This document shows, in pieces, positions 13,705 to 59,217 of a stretch of 64,000 nt of DNA (its first letter is position 1; each line of letters opens with the position of its first letter). The position numbers and the translations under genes were made by a program. The stretch lies in contig OW568867.1 in NCBI GenBank assembly GCA_938743325.2, positions 558,001-622,000 of the forward strand, read 5' to 3'. This DNA comes from Pycnococcus provasolii (Eukaryota; Chlorophyta; Pseudoscourfieldiophyceae; Pseudoscourfieldiales; Pycnococcaceae). The notes beneath the pieces were generated by a model that was not told where the DNA came from, did no database searches, and worked only from the letters and a program-made list of their open reading frames with translations.

Positions 13705-14105
13705 GGCAACAATTCTTCACGAGCACAAAACTAAACCTTACAATCCACCGCGGCCTCCCCCCCCCCCCCCGTTGGTGCGTGCCAGTTGCCCCAGCGAGTA
13801 TGAAGTCCCGTCCAGAGGGGGATCCCCACATTTCCCTTCCTCTGAACTGAACTGAACTGAACTGGGGCAGGGGTGGGGTGGGGTCTGGCGGGCCGGGCCG
13901 TCTGGGGTGGGGGGGGCTTTTCTTGCCAGAATGGAGAAATCGATCAGGGAGCGGAGGAACCTTCCTGTTAGGGTTAGGGTTAGGGTTAGGGTTAGGGTTA
14001 GGGTTAGGGTTAGGGTTAGGGTTAGGGGTATGAGTAGTTCCGTGGCCCGTGACGTGAAGTTTCAGTTCCAGAATCCTGAAGAAACATTCCGTCGGCTTCA
14101 TCTTC
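13705..14105. other. Short spacer between divergent kinesin-9 and aldo/keto reductase genes
   Basis: It contains poly-C (about 13757-13770), ACTGA repeats near 13845-13865, G-rich sequence, and the telomere-type tract described separately. Any open frame through it is a by-product of the repeats. Confidence 0.6.
13969..14027 (+). repeat. Interstitial telomere-type array (TTAGGG)n, about nine units
   Basis: A near-perfect head-to-tail TTAGGG array lies about 80 bp upstream of the aldo/keto reductase reading frame. The unit is the six-base type, not the TTTAGGG of land plants. Confidence 0.95.
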
Positions 14106-25830: not shown

Positions 25831-26134
25831 GGCTGCCGATGCGATGAAGATGAACGCCCCAGGGACCCGGTGGCGGCGGAGGGGAGGGTTTGGGTGGTAT
25901 GGAAAAGATGGTGAAAGGGGGGGGGGGGGGGGGGGCACACTACAACACTCCTACCAAATAGGGGGAACTGGGGATCCCCCTGTGCCTGGATACCGGGCCT
26001 TGTTGGATTTGAGTTCGGTTTAGTTAGGGTTAGGGTTAGGGTTAGGGTTAGGGCTAGGGTTAGGGTTACGGGTTCCCGTTCGGCCCTTTCCTTTTCCTTT
26101 TCTTTCCCTCTGCCTCTGCCAATAATCTTTTGCC
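25831..26134. other. Spacer between divergent eIF3e and AlaX genes
   Basis: It contains a G-run at about 25918-25936 and the telomere-type array at 26021-26070. Both gene starts are fed from this 303-bp region. Confidence 0.6.
26021..26070 (+). repeat. Interstitial telomere-type array (TTAGGG)n, about seven units
   Basis: TTAGGG units with one CTAGGG variant end about 65 bp upstream of the AlaX start. Confidence 0.93.
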
Positions 26135-30336: not shown

Positions 30337-31203
30337 ATGCCGCTCTCGTACGAGTCCAAGACGAGGCTGCGCACCGTCACCGCGCGCACGTCGCCCGAAA
30401 CGGGAGGAGGGCCGCTCGCGGCGCCCGCACACCTCAGGTTCGATGACAACTACTCCACCGGATTCCGAAACGGCCAACTCGGAACCTCGCCACCACGGGC
30501 AGGGGGAGGTGGGTCGTCAGCAGGCACATTCGGGGCGGCGAGCTCGCCGTTCCGAAGCGTCATGCTTGGAAGGCACGACTATGCGCTGAACACCCCAAGT
30601 CCCAAGTCGCACAAGGTGAACAGCCCCAGCTCGCTGTCGACGTCGATGTCGCCGCCGTCGTCGCGAAAAAAAGGAAAGGGGGAACCGACACTGCCCACGT
30701 ACACGTCGCTACGCAAAAAGCTCGAGACCATCAATATGGAGCGGGAGGCGCAGGAGGCGCAGCTAGCGCAAAAACTCGAACAGGCGAAGCAGGTGGAGGC
30801 GAACGCGAAAAACGAAGTGTCGAAGACCAAGGCTAAGCTGGAGTCGTTCACGTTTGACGTCAAGAAGCTCGAGACGATTCACATAGATGTTGCGCACGCC
30901 TGGCTGCGCGGCGGGTGTCGGTGCGAGGGGAAGGGCGGCTCGGGAACTTGGGAAAAAGGTGAACTCACCCTCGTTGACGACCACCTCGTGTGGAGCGTGT
31001 CAGGTGGACTCGCCGCGTGCGTTGGCTTGATGTCGCGGAGATGCAGGCTTGAGGTGAGGAACCTAAAGGTGACGACCAAGAACAAGGTGTGTACGCTGCA
31101 GAGCGGAAACACGACGCTGTCGTGCCGCATGAAGAATGATAGCGACACGGCGGCGCTGACAGACTGCTGTTTCCGGATAGCGTTGAACGCACAAGGCAAA
31201 TAA
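30337..31203 (+). CDS. Unrecognised 288-residue coiled-coil protein
   Basis: Intact frame. Residues 1-115 are Ser/Pro/Gly-rich and disordered. Residues 125-185 form a charged coiled coil (EREAQEAQLAQKLEQAKQVE). The C-terminal 100 residues form a compact beta-rich unit (GTWEKGELTLVDDHLVWSV; RCRLEVRNLKVTTKNKV) that could be a PH/GRAM-like lipid- or protein-binding fold, though I cannot assign it. The last codons (AQGK then stop) lie inside the first copy of the downstream tandem duplication. Confidence 0.6.
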   Translation: MPLSYESKTRLRTVTARTSPETGGGPLAAPAHLRFDDNYSTGFRNGQLGTSPPRAGGGGSSAGTFGAASSPFRSVMLGRHDYALNTPSPKSHKVNSPSSLSTSMSPPSSRKKGKGEPTLPTYTSLRKKLETINMEREAQEAQLAQKLEQAKQVEANAKNEVSKTKAKLESFTFDVKKLETIHIDVAHAWLRGGCRCEGKGGSGTWEKGELTLVDDHLVWSVSGGLAACVGLMSRRCRLEVRNLKVTTKNKVCTLQSGNTTLSCRMKNDSDTAALTDCCFRIALNAQGK

Positions 31204-32037
31204 CCATAGAGCATCATCAATCATAGAATTGTGTGCGAATTTGTACAAGAATCCTCTTTTTATTTTTAACGTCGCCTCGTTCGTCTTACTTACTTACTTA
31301 CTTACTCATTCTTTTTCCAACTTGTTGACGCGTTTTTTGAGCTGGAATGATCCCGGCGGGTTGCGCTGAAATGGCGCACTGTTCGACGACGACGCTGCTG
31401 CTGCCACCGCACCGAGCTTGTTGACGCGCTTTTTCAGCTGGAATGTGCCTGGAGGGTTGCGCTGGAATCCACCACCCACAAGGCAAATAACCATAGAGCA
31501 TCATCAATCATAGAATTGTGTGCGAATTTGTACATTTTTTTTTTAACGTCGCCTCGTTCGTCTTACTTACTTACTTACTTACTCATTCTTTTTCCAACTT
31601 GTTGACGCGTTTTTTGAGCTGGAATGATCCCGGCGGGTTGCGCTGAAATGGCGCACTGTTCGACGACGACGCTGCTGCTGCTGCCACCGCACCGAGCTTG
31701 TTGACGCGCTTTTTCAGCTGGAATGTGCCTGGAGGGTTGCGCTGGAATCCACCACCCACAAGGCAAATAACCATAGAGCATCATCAATCATAGAGTTGTG
31801 TGCGAATTTGTACATTTTTTTTTTAACGTCGCCTCGTTCGTCTTACTTACTTACTTACTTACTCATTCTTTTTCCAACTTGTTGACGCGTTTTTTGAGCT
31901 GGAATGATCCCGGCGGGTTGCGCTGAAATGGCGCACTGTTCGACGACGACGCTGCTGCTGCTGCCACCGCACCGAGCTTGTTGACGCGCTTTTTCAGCTG
32001 GAATGTGCCTGGAGGGTTGCGCTGGAATCCACCACCC
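31191..32037. repeat. Three-copy tandem duplication of convergent gene ends (about 280-287 bp units)
   Basis: The word ACAAGGCAAATAACC recurs at 31191, 31478 and 31758, giving periods of 287 and 280 bp. Each unit holds the last codons and 3' sequence of the plus-strand 288-residue gene, an ACTT microsatellite, and the last codons of the minus-strand plastid repeat-motif gene. The third copy is the functional 3' end of the minus gene; the two left copies are stranded gene-end duplicates of about 62-63 codons. Near-identity of the units shows a recent event. Confidence 0.92.
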
Positions 32038-33539
32038 ACGGCGGCCATCTTGTTGACGCGCTTTTTCAGCTGGAATGTGCCTGGAGGGTTGCGCTGGAAT
32101 TCACCACCCACGGCGGCCATCTTGTTGACGCGCTTTTTCAGCTGGAATGTGCCAGGAGGGTTGCGCACAAACGGCACCACATCTGAATCATCACCGTCGT
32201 CCACGTACGCGAGTTCCTCCTCAAGCTGTCGCGTGTAGCGCACGAGATTTTCGCGCTCCCCCACGACTTCGCGCGTCATCGACTCGAGCGTCGCACGGAG
32301 GCTAGACATTTCCTGTTCGAGCTTCGAGCTTTCGCTGCGGCTAGCCTTTAATTCGCTTTCAAGCTTCGAGTTGGCCTCCCGAGCTTTCGCAAGGTCAATT
32401 TCTGTAGAGGATGGTTGACTGTTGAATCCTGACCGCTTCTTTTCGAAGCGCTCGAAGAGCTCCTCCGTGAACAGGAGGGAAGTAGAGTCTGCGGAAGTAG
32501 AGTCTGAGTCTTCGGAGTCTTCGTCGTCGTCAACGTACGCAAGCTGCTCCTCAAGGCTGCGCGCGTACTCTGTGAGTTTCGTCTTCTCGGTGACAAAGTC
32601 AAGCGTAGCGGCTGCGAGCGCCTCCCTGAGTTGCTCCTCGGCAGCGGCGGCGGCGGCGGCGGCGGCGGAGGCGGAGGCGGCGGAGGCGGCGGCAGCATTC
32701 GCCTTAGCCTGCTCTGCGGCGAGCAGCGCGGCGGATTCTTTCATTTGCGTCGCGAGCTTCTCACTGCTTGAGGCTTCGATCTGCGCGATTTTCGATTCCA
32801 ACGCCGTGAGTTGCGTTTGGAGCAGGCTGTTGGATTCGAGAAGTCTTTCGTTGTCTTCGGACAAGATTATGAGCGCGGCGTCGTCGAGCGGCGACGACGT
32901 GTTGTCCGGATCAGAGTACGCGATTTCTTCTTCCAAGGAACGTGTGTGCTGCAGAGTTTTTGACTGCTGTGTTTGGAAGTCGACGGCAAGAGCTTGGAGG
33001 TTTTCTGCATGTTTGATTTCTTGCTGTTTCAGCTGAGACTTGAGAGACTCCAAAGTTTCCTGGTGCTGCGCGAGCTTGACTAAGGAGAGAGAATTGTAGG
33101 CATCTTCTTGATTTTTCATTGATGTTTTCAGCGTGGTGATCAAGTTGCGAGAGTTGGCAAGCTCAGATTGCGAAGATGCGAGTGCCGTTTTCGCGAGAGC
33201 GAGCTCAGACTTGAGCGAGGATAACGACGAGGTATCAAGACCCTGAGGGGAAGAAGTGAGCAAGTCTACTTTTTTTGTGAGTAGGTCGAGCTGCGCGGCG
33301 ATGGACGGATCGGATGCTGGTGCTGGCGATGATGATTGAGGAGCGGCAGGAGGGTAGTAGACGAAGTATCCTCCTCCTGCTCCTCCTGCTCCTCCGGGGG
33401 GGGGAGGGGGAGGTGGCGGTGGTGGAGCGGAGCAGGCACGTACTACTACTGAAGGAGCAGGACGACGACGACATATATAGCTGTGAGAGCCACTTGGCTT
33501 CTTCAACAAAGAAGAAGCCGACATCCCAGGCGCCAACAT
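31863..33539 (-). CDS. Predicted plastid coiled-coil protein with C-terminal basic repeat motif
   Basis: 558 codons. Residues 1-37 are Ser/Arg-rich and end in VVVRACSA, a good plastid transit peptide with a VRAC cleavage site. A poly-Pro and Gly stretch follows, then coiled coil from about 78 to 440. The motif LEEELAYVDD or a close variant recurs three times, each followed by an acidic Asp/Ser patch. The C-terminus has four copies of RNPPGTFQLKKRVNK (one with Ser for Thr) starting at about residues 459, 483, 507 and 540, with spacers of 9, 9 and 18 residues. I do not recognise the family. Regularly spaced basic motifs on a long disordered or coiled plastid protein resemble the logic of multivalent linker proteins, for example pyrenoid linkers, but this is analogy only. 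Confidence 0.7.
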   Translation of the reverse strand: MLAPGMSASSLLKKPSGSHSYICRRRPAPSVVVRACSAPPPPPPPPPPGGAGGAGGGYFVYYPPAAPQSSSPAPASDPSIAAQLDLLTKKVDLLTSSPQGLDTSSLSSLKSELALAKTALASSQSELANSRNLITTLKTSMKNQEDAYNSLSLVKLAQHQETLESLKSQLKQQEIKHAENLQALAVDFQTQQSKTLQHTRSLEEEIAYSDPDNTSSPLDDAALIILSEDNERLLESNSLLQTQLTALESKIAQIEASSSEKLATQMKESAALLAAEQAKANAAAASAASASAAAAAAAAAEEQLREALAAATLDFVTEKTKLTEYARSLEEQLAYVDDDEDSEDSDSTSADSTSLLFTEELFERFEKKRSGFNSQPSSTEIDLAKAREANSKLESELKASRSESSKLEQEMSSLRATLESMTREVVGERENLVRYTRQLEEELAYVDDGDDSDVVPFVRNPPGTFQLKKRVNKMAAVGGEFQRNPPGTFQLKKRVNKMAAVGGGFQRNPPGTFQLKKRVNKLGAVAAAAASSSNSAPFQRNPPGSFQLKKRVNKLEKE

Positions 33540-36760: not shown

Positions 36761-37260
36761 TCATGCGAGTCGCGTGAACGTTGTCCGCATCCAGCGCTTC
36801 GCCAGCATTGACAAAAGTTGCGCACAGGTGTCTCCTCGCGCCTACTACCACCCACGACGAACGCATGCACGCTGCGGCAAAGCATTTGCACAATTGACAG
36901 CCTGCAGGGTTAAGGTTGTTAAGGTTAGGGTTAGGGTTAGGGTTAGGGTTCACTTTCATGCGAGTCGCGTGAACGTTGTGCGCATCAAGCGCTTCGCCAG
37001 CATTGACAAAAGTTGCGCACAGGTGTCTCCTCGCGCCTACTACCACCCACGACGAACGCATGCACGCTGCGGCAAAGCTTTTGCACAATTGCCAGCCTGC
37101 AGGGTTAAGGTTGTTAAGGTTAGGGTTAGGGTTAGGGTTAGGGCTCACTTTCATGCGAGTCGCGTGAACGTTGTGCGCATCAAGCGCTTCGCCAGCATTG
37201 ACAAAAGTTGCGCACAGGTGTCTCCTCGCGCCTACTACCACCCACGACGAACCAATGCAC
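36761..37260 (+). repeat. Satellite-like tandem repeat, about 195-bp unit, each ending in telomere-type repeats
   Basis: TCATGCGAGTCGCGTGAACG starts units at 36761, 36957 and 37151 (periods 196 and 194 bp). Units 1 and 2 end in GGGTTAAGGTTGTTAAGG followed by four to five TTAGGG units; unit 3 breaks off near 37258. A CCCTAAACCCTAACCC word follows at about 37285. The structure looks like subtelomeric satellite inserted or left within the chromosome. Confidence 0.9.
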
Positions 37261-56530: not shown

Positions 56531-58864
56531 TCAGCACTCTGCATATCCGAGGAAGTCGGGGTACGATGTCCAGCCCGATGTCTTGTACGTCTTCTGAGGA
56601 GCGCTCGGAATGTCGTGAGGCCTCGCTCCGGATGATTTGCTCCACGCTTCCCACCCCTTCTTGCTCTTCAGACCGAGCGTACGCACGTACGCGCGCGCTG
56701 CCTCGAACGTGCGAAACGAGCCAGCCACCTTGCCGTCCGCGTAACCGAGGAAGTCGGGGTACGATGTCCAGCCCGTTGACGCGTATGTCTGATCAGGACT
56801 GCTCGGAATGTCGTGCGGTCGCGCGCCTGACTTGCTCCACGCCTTCCAATCTTTCTGGCTCTTCAGACCGAGCGTGCGCACGTACGCGCGCGCTGCCTCG
56901 AACGTGCGAAACGAGCCAGTCACCTTGCCGATCTGGTATCCGAGGAAGTCGCCGTACGACAGCCAGCCTGATGATGCGTACGTCCTATTGGGACAGCTTG
57001 GAATGTCGGGAGGTCGCGAGCCGGACTTGCTCCACGCCTGCCACTCCTCCTGGCTCTTCAGGCCGAGCGTGCGCGCGTACGCGCGCACATCCTCGAACGT
57101 GCGAAACGAGCGAGCCGCGTTTCTTTCGCGCCGTGCGGCATTCAGTTTGGCGGCACGCACGAGGATGGCGCAGAAACGTTCCGGCGATGTCATTGGTGCG
57201 GGCTCCGCAGTTCTCAGATGATCAGAATCTGCATTCGCGGCTCTTCTTTCCTCAGCTCTGCGCTCAGCTGCGGCAGCTTCAGCCTTTCTTTCTTCACGCT
57301 CCAATTCCTCTCTGGACTTTTCAACACCCACTTTGATGAGGATGCTCCTTGCAGATGCTGCCACCTGACCATCCACGCCTTTTCCAGTCATGAGCGCCTT
57401 GAGAAGATCCTCGAGGCTTCCCTCGAGATTTTTCACCACCCTCAGCTTGCTCGCCTCCAGAGGCAGCGAATTCAGCGCCATGAGCGTTTTGCGTGCGACG
57501 GCGACGACATTGGGATCGTGCTGACGCGACCAGACGCACATCACCCGTTGTCTGAGGATTAGAAAGATCTGCTGAAGGATTCCGGCAGCCATGAGCTCCT
57601 GCCGGTGATCGTGGCGAGGGATGTTGATGATTGCGTCGAGCAGTATGTTCAGGTCCTTCACGGAGAACGGCAGCCGCTGCGTTTCTGTGTAGGCATCAGA
57701 GTCTATGCGCACGGCGGTTGTGAAGAGCGGTACAAACGTGCGCAGGCTTGCTCGCGCGACGTATCCTTTTTCCATCATTCCAGGCTCGGCGAGTCTGCGC
57801 TCAATCTCCGACTTGCGGTTCTCGACAAGTCGGGGTGCAAGTTTCGCTCGCTTCGCTGCTCGCTGCTTTGGCGTTTCCCGCCCCCTTCGTTCGCGCCTTG
57901 CCGCGCCGTCGTCGTAGTCCGAGTCGTCTGAAGAATCTCCCGCGCGAGTCGGTCGCCTCGGAGCGGCAGCACCGCTGCTTCGCTTCTCAGGCATCTTGAG
58001 AAGGCGACGCATTCCGAGGTGCTCGTCCTCCTCCTCAAAGTCAGCAGCAGTGAACTCCACCTCCGGATCAGCGTGCACTTCGCTGGTTGGCACGTCAGCC
58101 AGCTCGAAGTTCTTCGCCGCGTCTGCGCCTCCGCCGACGAAGCCTTTGCACTTGGACTCGCCACAGTGGCAGCGCATCGGGCGCTCGTCGTAGCGTTCGA
58201 AGTTGTAGTCCATGGTGATTTCCTCGCCAGGCTGGATGTCACGCGTGGCGAATATGCCGATGCACACCTCCTCGCGCACAGTCCACTTCTGCATCTCGCA
58301 GTTGGGTGCGCAACTGTGGTTGGTGAATCGCCCGAGGTTCCCCATGCGCGACGCGTCGATCACCTCGCCCGCGCTCAGGCTCATGAAGTAGGTGTGCCTC
58401 GAACGCTCGCGCGTCAGCCACGCGCTCTTGCGTTCGACGTACGTCGCTTCGTCGAGCACCTCGCCCGTGTACTCGATGACGAATCCGCCCTTTGGAATGC
58501 TCTGCTTGGCGAAGAGCCCGCGTCCCTTCGCAGGAATGCCCGTGTGCTTGCACTCCAGGTTGGCGTACTGCCTTCTGCTGAACATCTGGTTCGTGCACGT
58601 CGGTCCGCAGGGGCAGTATCCGGGTATGCACTCCATGAACACTCGTCGGTTGAGGCACGACGTTGCGGAGCACCCCGATGACGCCGTGCAGTCGCAAGGC
58701 AAGACGTCGGCTTCTCGGATCGACGCGTGGTGGCGTCCGGGTATACTTCCGAAGTAGTTGCGTCGCAGCAGGTAGACGTTGAGCACTGTGGGGTTTTGGT
58801 TTTTGCCAGCAGCAGCAGCGGCAGCGGCAGCGGCAGAGGCGGCTGCTCCATGGCACTGCGGCAT
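56531..58864 (-). CDS. SET2-type histone H3K36 methyltransferase with C-terminal integrase-type repeats
   Basis: 777 codons from the ATG at 58864. A short poly-Ala N-terminus leads to an AWS domain (about 45-95, CDCTASSGCSATSC and CIPGYCPCGPTCTNQMF). The SET domain follows (about 95-215) with NHSCAPNC and the catalytic ITMDYNFERY, then the post-SET CHCGESKCKGF. This order is that of SET2/NSD enzymes. A helical region at about 350-500 resembles a TFIIS-N/LW-type domain. The C-terminus has three tandem repeats of about 65 residues, each SFRTFExARAYxRTLGLKS, then WxAWSKSGxRPxDIP, then TYxxxGWxSYxDFLGY. They resemble the INT_rpt (phage-integrase repeat) family as I recall it. The frame is intact. 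It converges on the carboxylase fragment. Confidence 0.85.
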   Translation of the reverse strand: MPQCHGAAASAAAAAAAAAGKNQNPTVLNVYLLRRNYFGSIPGRHHASIREADVLPCDCTASSGCSATSCLNRRVFMECIPGYCPCGPTCTNQMFSRRQYANLECKHTGIPAKGRGLFAKQSIPKGGFVIEYTGEVLDEATYVERKSAWLTRERSRHTYFMSLSAGEVIDASRMGNLGRFTNHSCAPNCEMQKWTVREEVCIGIFATRDIQPGEEITMDYNFERYDERPMRCHCGESKCKGFVGGGADAAKNFELADVPTSEVHADPEVEFTAADFEEEDEHLGMRRLLKMPEKRSSGAAAPRRPTRAGDSSDDSDYDDGAARRERRGRETPKQRAAKRAKLAPRLVENRKSEIERRLAEPGMMEKGYVARASLRTFVPLFTTAVRIDSDAYTETQRLPFSVKDLNILLDAIINIPRHDHRQELMAAGILQQIFLILRQRVMCVWSRQHDPNVVAVARKTLMALNSLPLEASKLRVVKNLEGSLEDLLKALMTGKGVDGQVAASARSILIKVGVEKSREELEREERKAEAAAAERRAEERRAANADSDHLRTAEPAPMTSPERFCAILVRAAKLNAARRERNAARSFRTFEDVRAYARTLGLKSQEEWQAWSKSGSRPPDIPSCPNRTYASSGWLSYGDFLGYQIGKVTGSFRTFEAARAYVRTLGLKSQKDWKAWSKSGARPHDIPSSPDQTYASTGWTSYPDFLGYADGKVAGSFRTFEAARAYVRTLGLKSKKGWEAWSKSSGARPHDIPSAPQKTYKTSGWTSYPDFLGYAEC

Positions 58865-59217
58865 GAGAAGAGGGCGGAGGAGAGAGAGGAGGAGTCCCGG
58901 GGAGGGAGGGAGGGAGGGGGAAAGGGGGTGGGGGAAAGATCTCGTTGAAAGGGGGCGGACGCGGAAGGAAACGGACGGAGGGAGGGCGAGAGAAGTCCTT
59001 CCCCCTCCTAAACAGGAGGGGGCAGGGCCAGGCAGTCTTGGCAAACCCCCAAACCATTCGGGGCCCTTCCTAGAGTGGTTTTGTCAAGTCCGGGAGCCGA
59101 AAAAACTATTCCAAGGCACCTCGGGCTAACCCTAACCCTAACCCTAATTCGTGTTGGTTTTTCCCCTTCTTGACTGGTTTGTTTTGAGTTTTGACATTCA
59201 AGTAATTAAACTAGAGG
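58865..59217. other. Spacer between divergent SET2 and HhH-protein genes
   Basis: It contains purine-rich GGGAGGGA sequence at about 58890-58990 and three CCCTAA units at about 59128-59146. Both start codons are fed from this region. Confidence 0.6.
59128..59146 (-). repeat. Short telomere-type tract (CCCTAA)3
   Basis: Three CCCTAA units lie about 70 bp upstream of the HhH-protein start. The orientation is opposite to the arrays at 13969 and 26021. Confidence 0.85.

Follow-up and report, generated by a model that had tools for sequence, protein, structure and literature searches.

The Pycnococcus provasolii CCAP190/2 assembly ucPycProv1.2 comprises 44 chromosomes with a GC content of 55.5-58.0%, a mitochondrion of 24.3 kb and a plastid of 80.2 kb (PMC11130579). 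The genome analyzed here totals 32,333,900 bases in 46 contigs, the plastid contig being N in part, and the window, i.e. the whole 64,000-nucleotide stretch under analysis, corresponds to positions 558001-622000 of chromosome 7. Near its center, a 558-codon reading frame on the reverse strand (31863-33539) encodes a predicted scaffold protein (Table 1), and an earlier note on this DNA had given the coordinates, strand and length of this frame exactly. Codon usage scored 0.107 bits per codon in this frame and -0.141 to -0.502 in the remaining five. Among 2000 random windows drawn from that sequence, some of which include real genes, the 95th percentile was 0.024 and the 99th was 0.226, so that this score falls between the two. 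The codon-usage training set consisted of eight ORFs from the window, seven of which scored 0.19-0.43, all higher than the scaffold gene, while the eighth, which had entered the training in frame, was scored out of frame (-0.484). Codons 1-78 of the scaffold ORF, taken alone, had a low score (-0.350).

The first 76 residues of the predicted protein are free of D and E, and the pI of residues 1-35 is 11.57. Based on composition alone, this N-terminus resembles local transit peptides, because the leader exons of RBCS genes in the same genome also start with an acid-free, basic stretch (e.g. MMSLRAPSRAVTVKSTPRAVRANA). Plastid import of the predicted scaffold protein is thus plausible.

Table 1. 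Features at the scaffold locus (positions in the window; residues of the 558-residue protein)
Feature	Position	Strand	Basis
ORF P0001, 558 codons + stop	31863..33539	-	uninterrupted translation; top codon-usage frame of six
Putative transit peptide, residues 1-35 (no D/E, six K/R, VVVRA end before C36)	33435..33539	-	composition
Pro/Gly/Ala/Tyr-rich low-complexity segment, residues 36-76	33312..33434	-	sequence; pLDDT <50 over most
Helical rod 1, residues 79-207	32919..33305	-	AlphaFold model; resembles rods 2 and 3
LEE motif 1, R200-D212, RSLEEEIAYSDPD, C-terminal end of rod 1	32904..32942	-	sequence and model
Helical rod 2, residues 218-338	32526..32888	-	AlphaFold model; rod alignments
LEE motif 2, R327-D339, RSLEEQLAYVDDD, C-terminal end of rod 2, then acidic tract	32523..32561	-	sequence and model
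Helical rod 3, residues 379-447	32199..32405	-	AlphaFold model; rod alignments
LEE motif 3, R437-D448, RQLEEELAYVDD, C-terminal end of rod 3, then acidic tract	32196..32231	-	sequence and model
15-mer copy 1, RNPPGTFQLKKRVNK, residues 459-473	32121..32165	-	sequence
15-mer copy 2, RNPPGTFQLKKRVNK, residues 483-497	32049..32093	-	sequence
15-mer copy 3, RNPPGTFQLKKRVNK, residues 507-521	31977..32021	-	sequence
15-mer copy 4, RNPPGSFQLKKRVNK, residues 540-554, diverged	31878..31922	-	sequence
72-bp tandem array, 2.6 copies, 98% matches; contains 15-mer copies 1-3	31977..32166	-	
280-bp tandem array, 3.0 copies, 97% matches	31190..32039	.	
Extra 15-mer pair 1, beyond stop, outside ORF (31697-31741, 31598-31642)	31598..31741	-	
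Extra 15-mer pair 2, beyond stop, outside ORF (31417-31461, 31321-31365)	31321..31461	-	

Acidic, predicted helical body and basic tail

A single-sequence AlphaFold model of the whole protein, of low confidence (mean pLDDT 62.6, pTM 0.22), placed helices at residues 79-96, 103-207, 218-338, 359-370, 379-447, and 549-557, with the tail otherwise disordered, and residues 440-558 modelled alone had no secondary structure (mean pLDDT 51.5). As modelled, the three rods are mutually similar, each corresponding to an acidic helical repeat with a terminal LEE motif. Local alignments of the three rod pairs scored 101, 76, and 112, compared to shuffle maxima of 74, 65, and 55 (0 of 300 shuffles reached each score), although these shuffles destroy helical periodicity and hence flatter the similarity between rods. 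For this reason, the better evidence of rod repeats is that their LEE ends line up in register.

The LEE motifs start at R200 (RSLEEEIAYSDPD), R327 (RSLEEQLAYVDDD), and R437 (RQLEEELAYVDDG), and represent three variants of R[SQ]LEE[EQ][LI]AY. They had previously been described as three LEEELAYVDD-acidic motifs, a wording which applies literally to the third only, and the first is not associated with a dense acidic tract. Across the three pairs of LEE cores, the ratios of changes in synonymous vs other codons were 7:6, 5:7, and 3:5, i.e. silent change does not appear to be in striking excess. A long coiled coil had also been proposed, and while the model agrees with a helical body, the heptad finds less support: the hydrophobic periodicity peaks at 3.55-3.60, closer to a plain helix than to a strict 3.5 heptad, and was reached by 1 of 500 shuffles for rod 1, 20 for rod 2, and none for rod 3. 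Given this offset from 3.5 and the weak signal in rod 2, the rods are at most putative coiled coils.

Charge is segregated along the chain, with a pI of 4.55 for the rods, 12.0 for the tail, and 5.05 for the mature protein. Blocks of 20 residues carry net charges of -7, -5, and -6 around the LEE motifs; in the tail, which includes 21 K/R vs 3 D/E, the values are +3 to +5. Such strong segregation within one chain would be consistent with self-assembly, whereby the acidic junctions that follow rods 2 and 3 would bind the basic 15-mers of other chains to form a stromal filament or coacervate. Charge alone is unspecific, however, and the uncharged, conserved NPPG[TS]F half of the 15-mer would be left unexplained, and we consider self-assembly of this kind unlikely. 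The basic tail might instead anchor the protein to plastid DNA, ribosomes, or an acidic membrane, with the rods acting as spacers. This seems improbable, as no nucleic-acid- or membrane-binding family was matched in Pfam or NCBIfam and this type of binding would not require the specificity of an exactly repeated 15-mer.

Basic 15-mers and tandem duplication

The tail includes four copies of a basic 15-mer, RNPPG[TS]FQLKKRVNK, starting at residues 459, 483, 507, and 540. All four had been recognized in the earlier note; copies 1-3 are identical peptides and copy 4 carries a T to S change. The regular spacing ascribed to them holds for the first three (24 and 24 residues, start to start) but not for the last interval, which is 33 residues long. 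That note had however missed the two duplication arrays at this locus, with units of 72 and 280 bp. Besides 15-mers 3 and 4 and the stop codon, the 280-bp array repeats the 3' flank together with the terminal codons of a convergent neighbour ORF. Its units from 31477 and 31757 differ by one base where both are aligned, and the unit from 31190 displays small indels.

At most one synonymous change separates 15-mer copies 1-3 from each other, and judging from their DNA these are recent 72-bp duplicates. Copy 4, on the other hand, differs from each of the first three by five synonymous changes and one nonsynonymous change (the T to S). When six substitutions were placed randomly, at most one amino-acid change was obtained with a P of 0.0035, 0.00555, and 0.0093 for transition weights of 1, 2, and 4, respectively, a test which represents one 45-base comparison and ignores homogenisation. 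Since five of the six changes in copy 4 are silent, this suggests that the 15-mer peptide is under selection.

These data also bear on the possibility, raised in similar form in the earlier note, that the repeats mostly reflect tandem DNA duplication, without a function for their copy number. Duplication accounts for copies 1-3 being three in number and for the copies beyond the stop codon, and the 280-bp array multiplies non-coding flank as well. Copy 4 fits less well, its DNA having diverged while its peptide was mostly retained, and the frame remains open across all four copies; we regard this explanation as unlikely. The copies within and past the ORF also illustrate how tandem duplication can raise the number of stickers.

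Searches for relatives and a proposed plastid tether

Searches against Pfam and NCBIfam yielded sub-cut-off matches alone (best CENP-F_leu_zip, E 0.015; SMC, E 0.087). For the PDB, five weak unrelated matches were obtained with the whole protein at E up to 1, the best being a Cas3 helicase (E 0.0068), and two leucine-rich-repeat proteins alone were obtained with the tail (E 0.16 and 1.9). None of these three databases provided a convincing relative, in line with the earlier view that the motif belongs to no recognised family. Within the same genome, the pattern PPG[TS]FxL (with L or F last) had 22 matches, including eight at the locus (four in the ORF and four in the duplicates) and 14 elsewhere, none of which was followed by KK, while LEE[EQ]xAY had four, namely the three described here and an FEEELAY in an unrelated frame, both patterns being blind to split exons and to serine AGY codons. 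The whole protein, searched against the genome at E up to 10, had 12 matches, of which nine had an E of at least 0.003 and the remaining three were the gene itself and its two 3' duplicates. As judged by motif pattern, the gene is unique in its own genome.

Beyond this genome, a peptide pattern was detected in 33 stretches of viral contigs, none of which was confirmed, and a DNA pattern in none. In prokaryote genomes, PPG[TS]FxLKK was found in eight stretches, compared to about 7.5 estimated by chance (36 specified bits across 257 billion bases, two strands, and uniform composition), and none of the eight included a second motif copy in frame (frames of 11 to 194 residues). A literature search for PPGTFQLKK, PPGSFQLKK, and FQLKKRVNK found no paper with these peptides in the library searched. 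AT-hook and NLS readings were dropped on inspection of the sequence.

The product of this orphan gene is real and unusual. Our preferred reading, to which we assign a probability of roughly 0.45, is that of a lineage-restricted nuclear gene encoding a rod-shaped multivalent tether, probably imported into the plastid. After import, the three acidic helical repeats would form an elongated and probably self-associating rod, with each repeat predicted, from sequence and model, to end in a LEE[EQ][LI]AY junction and the last two to be followed by acidic tracts. The predicted disordered, basic C-terminal tail would then display four NPPG[TS]FQLKKRVNK stickers on flexible spacers, so that one acidic plastid partner would face numerous weak, identical basic contacts on associated chains and be gathered or anchored by them. 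As a class, the partner is likely to be a multimeric enzyme of the stroma or a membrane surface, with Rubisco of the pyrenoid as the leading single candidate, albeit at well below even odds.

This tether reading is favored by an open frame with exact repeats, the best codon usage of six frames, an acid-free basic N-terminus similar to RBCS leaders, the in-register rod repeats, the charge segregation, the preserved peptide of copy 4, and the uniqueness by pattern in its own genome. Weighing against it are the low confidence of the single-sequence model (pTM 0.22), the lack of structure of the tail modelled alone, the hydrophobic periodicity offset from 3.5 and its weakness in rod 2, the recent duplication of copies 1-3, the LEE cores with no striking silent excess, and a codon score lower than for the training ORFs. 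The multivalent scaffold suggested in the earlier note is supported as an architecture, i.e. predicted rods, LEE ends, a 15-mer tail, and no family match.

A special case of the tether reading would be a Rubisco linker of the Pycnococcus pyrenoid. Here, the 15-mer would dock on the Rubisco large subunit in a manner similar to the Chlorella linker helix, its Phe entering a hydrophobic pocket and its two basic residues contacting acidic residues, and the four copies per chain would cross-link holoenzymes. CsLinker, from Chlorella sorokiniana, is described as binding RbcL via Phe173, Leu174, Arg176, and Lys177, and FLIPPer as selecting for repeating structured elements 20-120 residues apart (PMC11570498). 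Like the scaffold protein, CsLinker has a predicted transit peptide and short stickers in several copies, in which a Phe is followed by basic residues at +3 and +4, and its homologues are reported from close relatives only (PMC11570498). In the scaffold protein, this Phe and the basic residues are found as F-Q-L-K-K in every 15-mer, and the 24-33 residues between 15-mers fall within the FLIPPer range. A pyrenoid with intruding mitochondrial membranes is given as a trait of Pycnococcaceae (PMC6492006), and the genome includes four RBCS and three LCIB-family genes.

Several observations argue against such a linker. F..[KR][KR] also occurs in 8.05% of 15-mer shuffles and a fifth time in the protein outside the repeats (FEKKR), Glu169 and Leu174 of CsLinker have no counterpart in the 15-mer, and neither E...F[LM].RK nor the relaxed [DE]...F[LMIV].[KR][KR] has a match in the scaffold protein. 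The stickers of CsLinker are reported to be helices in a largely disordered protein, 66 residues apart (F173 to F239) (PMC11570498). In contrast, those of the scaffold protein are 24-33 residues apart, predicted to be disordered and non-helical in both the full-length and tail models, and located behind a long acidic helical body. Although the 15-mer intervals of 24, 24, and 33 residues fit the FLIPPer spacing, the 15-mers are not predicted to be structured elements, and a protein with model helices across residues ~79-338 and 379-447 of 558 is not largely disordered. An acidic mature protein (pI 5.05) with a mostly helical body is also unlike EPYC1-type linkers, and a small-subunit-like ORF on C14 (see below) is by its domain the more obvious Rubisco-associated candidate, which weighs slightly against the linker. 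Overall, of the "linker or tether" put forward in the earlier note, the tether architecture is retained, whereas a Rubisco or pyrenoid linker appears doubtful, given that 8% of shuffles share F..[KR][KR] and that the helical body is acidic.

Other known linkers provide further points of comparison. In Phaeodactylum, PYCO1 is a linker of red-type Rubisco based on KWSP sticker repeats, and the scaffold protein shares its sticker-repeat logic; a PYCO1-type sticker was rejected, as KWSP is absent from the scaffold protein. The motif of EPYC1 and of Chlamydomonas Rubisco-binding-motif proteins is W[KR]xx[hydrophobic][DE], also written W[+]xx[hydrophobic][-]. A Chlamydomonas Rubisco-binding-motif protein was ruled out, since the scaffold protein has no Trp. 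EPYC1 is similar to the scaffold protein in having a repeated motif within a plastid protein (PMC11570498, PMC10473226), but differs in that the scaffold protein is not largely disordered. SAGA1 and SAGA2, also from Chlamydomonas, combine a predicted coiled-coil body with copies of a short binding motif and follow a tether logic (PMC13167743), and are closer in architecture to the scaffold protein. Unlike these two, the scaffold protein displays no CBM20 among its Pfam matches to E 1, and their Rubisco-binding motif was not found in it.

In a further reading, the protein would be a prasinophyte pyrenoid organiser, in which the rods tether and the tail links, its NPPG[TS]FQLKK stickers having converged on the RbcL site used by CsLinker; a helical backbone would then take the place of a disordered chain in keeping the Rubisco matrix together. 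We see this as a long shot. If the motif does bind Rubisco, it would represent a further solution within the green lineage, one that relies on a helical rod; if the partner is other than Rubisco, the motif would still be a short, synthesizable sticker from a predicted plastid protein of a marine picoalga.

Rubisco-related genes and other features of the genome

Beyond four RBCS genes, the genome includes a longer ORF with a fifth match of the small-subunit type, three LCIB-family matches, and 27 CBM20 matches. This gene set fits an alga with a pyrenoid-type carbon-concentrating system, and says nothing direct about the scaffold protein. Two of the RBCS genes (L053:2476-2946, - strand, and L053:4041-4517, + strand) have a Pro/Gly/Tyr-rich C-terminal extension ending in TYNYSW, and the two remaining ones end at VRP or just after. 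One LCIB-family, carbonic-anhydrase-like match (C7:551865-552491) is located ~5.5 kb left of the window and ~37 kb from the scaffold gene. A small chromosome, C42, harbors 12 of the 27 CBM20 matches (including L062-L067, L071, and L072), some in frames of 2498 and 4250 residues.

On C14 (match 239973-240221; L008:280-1800, + strand), a 506-aa ORF, from a listing with GTG starts, includes, at residues 408-489, a domain similar to the Rubisco small subunit (Pfam E 8e-13), preceded by ~400 mostly low-complexity residues that start in a transit-like manner. In the PDB it best matches Rubisco small subunits (top 6lrr_T, E 6.1e-10), to which it aligns without a long loop insertion, and none of the 55 PDB matches listed for it is an entry named CcmM. 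From its sequence, this ORF could encode a Rubisco-associated protein or a CcmM-like linker; no green-algal protein of this type appeared among the entries listed in a literature search. A 644-residue open frame in the nuclear genome matches the RuBisCO_large catalytic domain (L009, C8:308973-309701, - strand; 79.8 bits) and perhaps encodes a Rubisco-like protein.

Elsewhere in the window, a histone methyltransferase-like protein with SET and AWS domains (56531-59044, - strand) ends in 195-bp tandem repeats, with a weak match to INT_rpt in one stretch (integrase repeat unit; 21.1 bits, below the 26.5 cut-off). Four short telomere-like GTTAGG arrays are found inside the chromosome, at 13967-14027, 26023-26074, 36918-36950, and 37113-37143, the last two being located within an ORF, where they are translated as NPNPNPN-type repeats.
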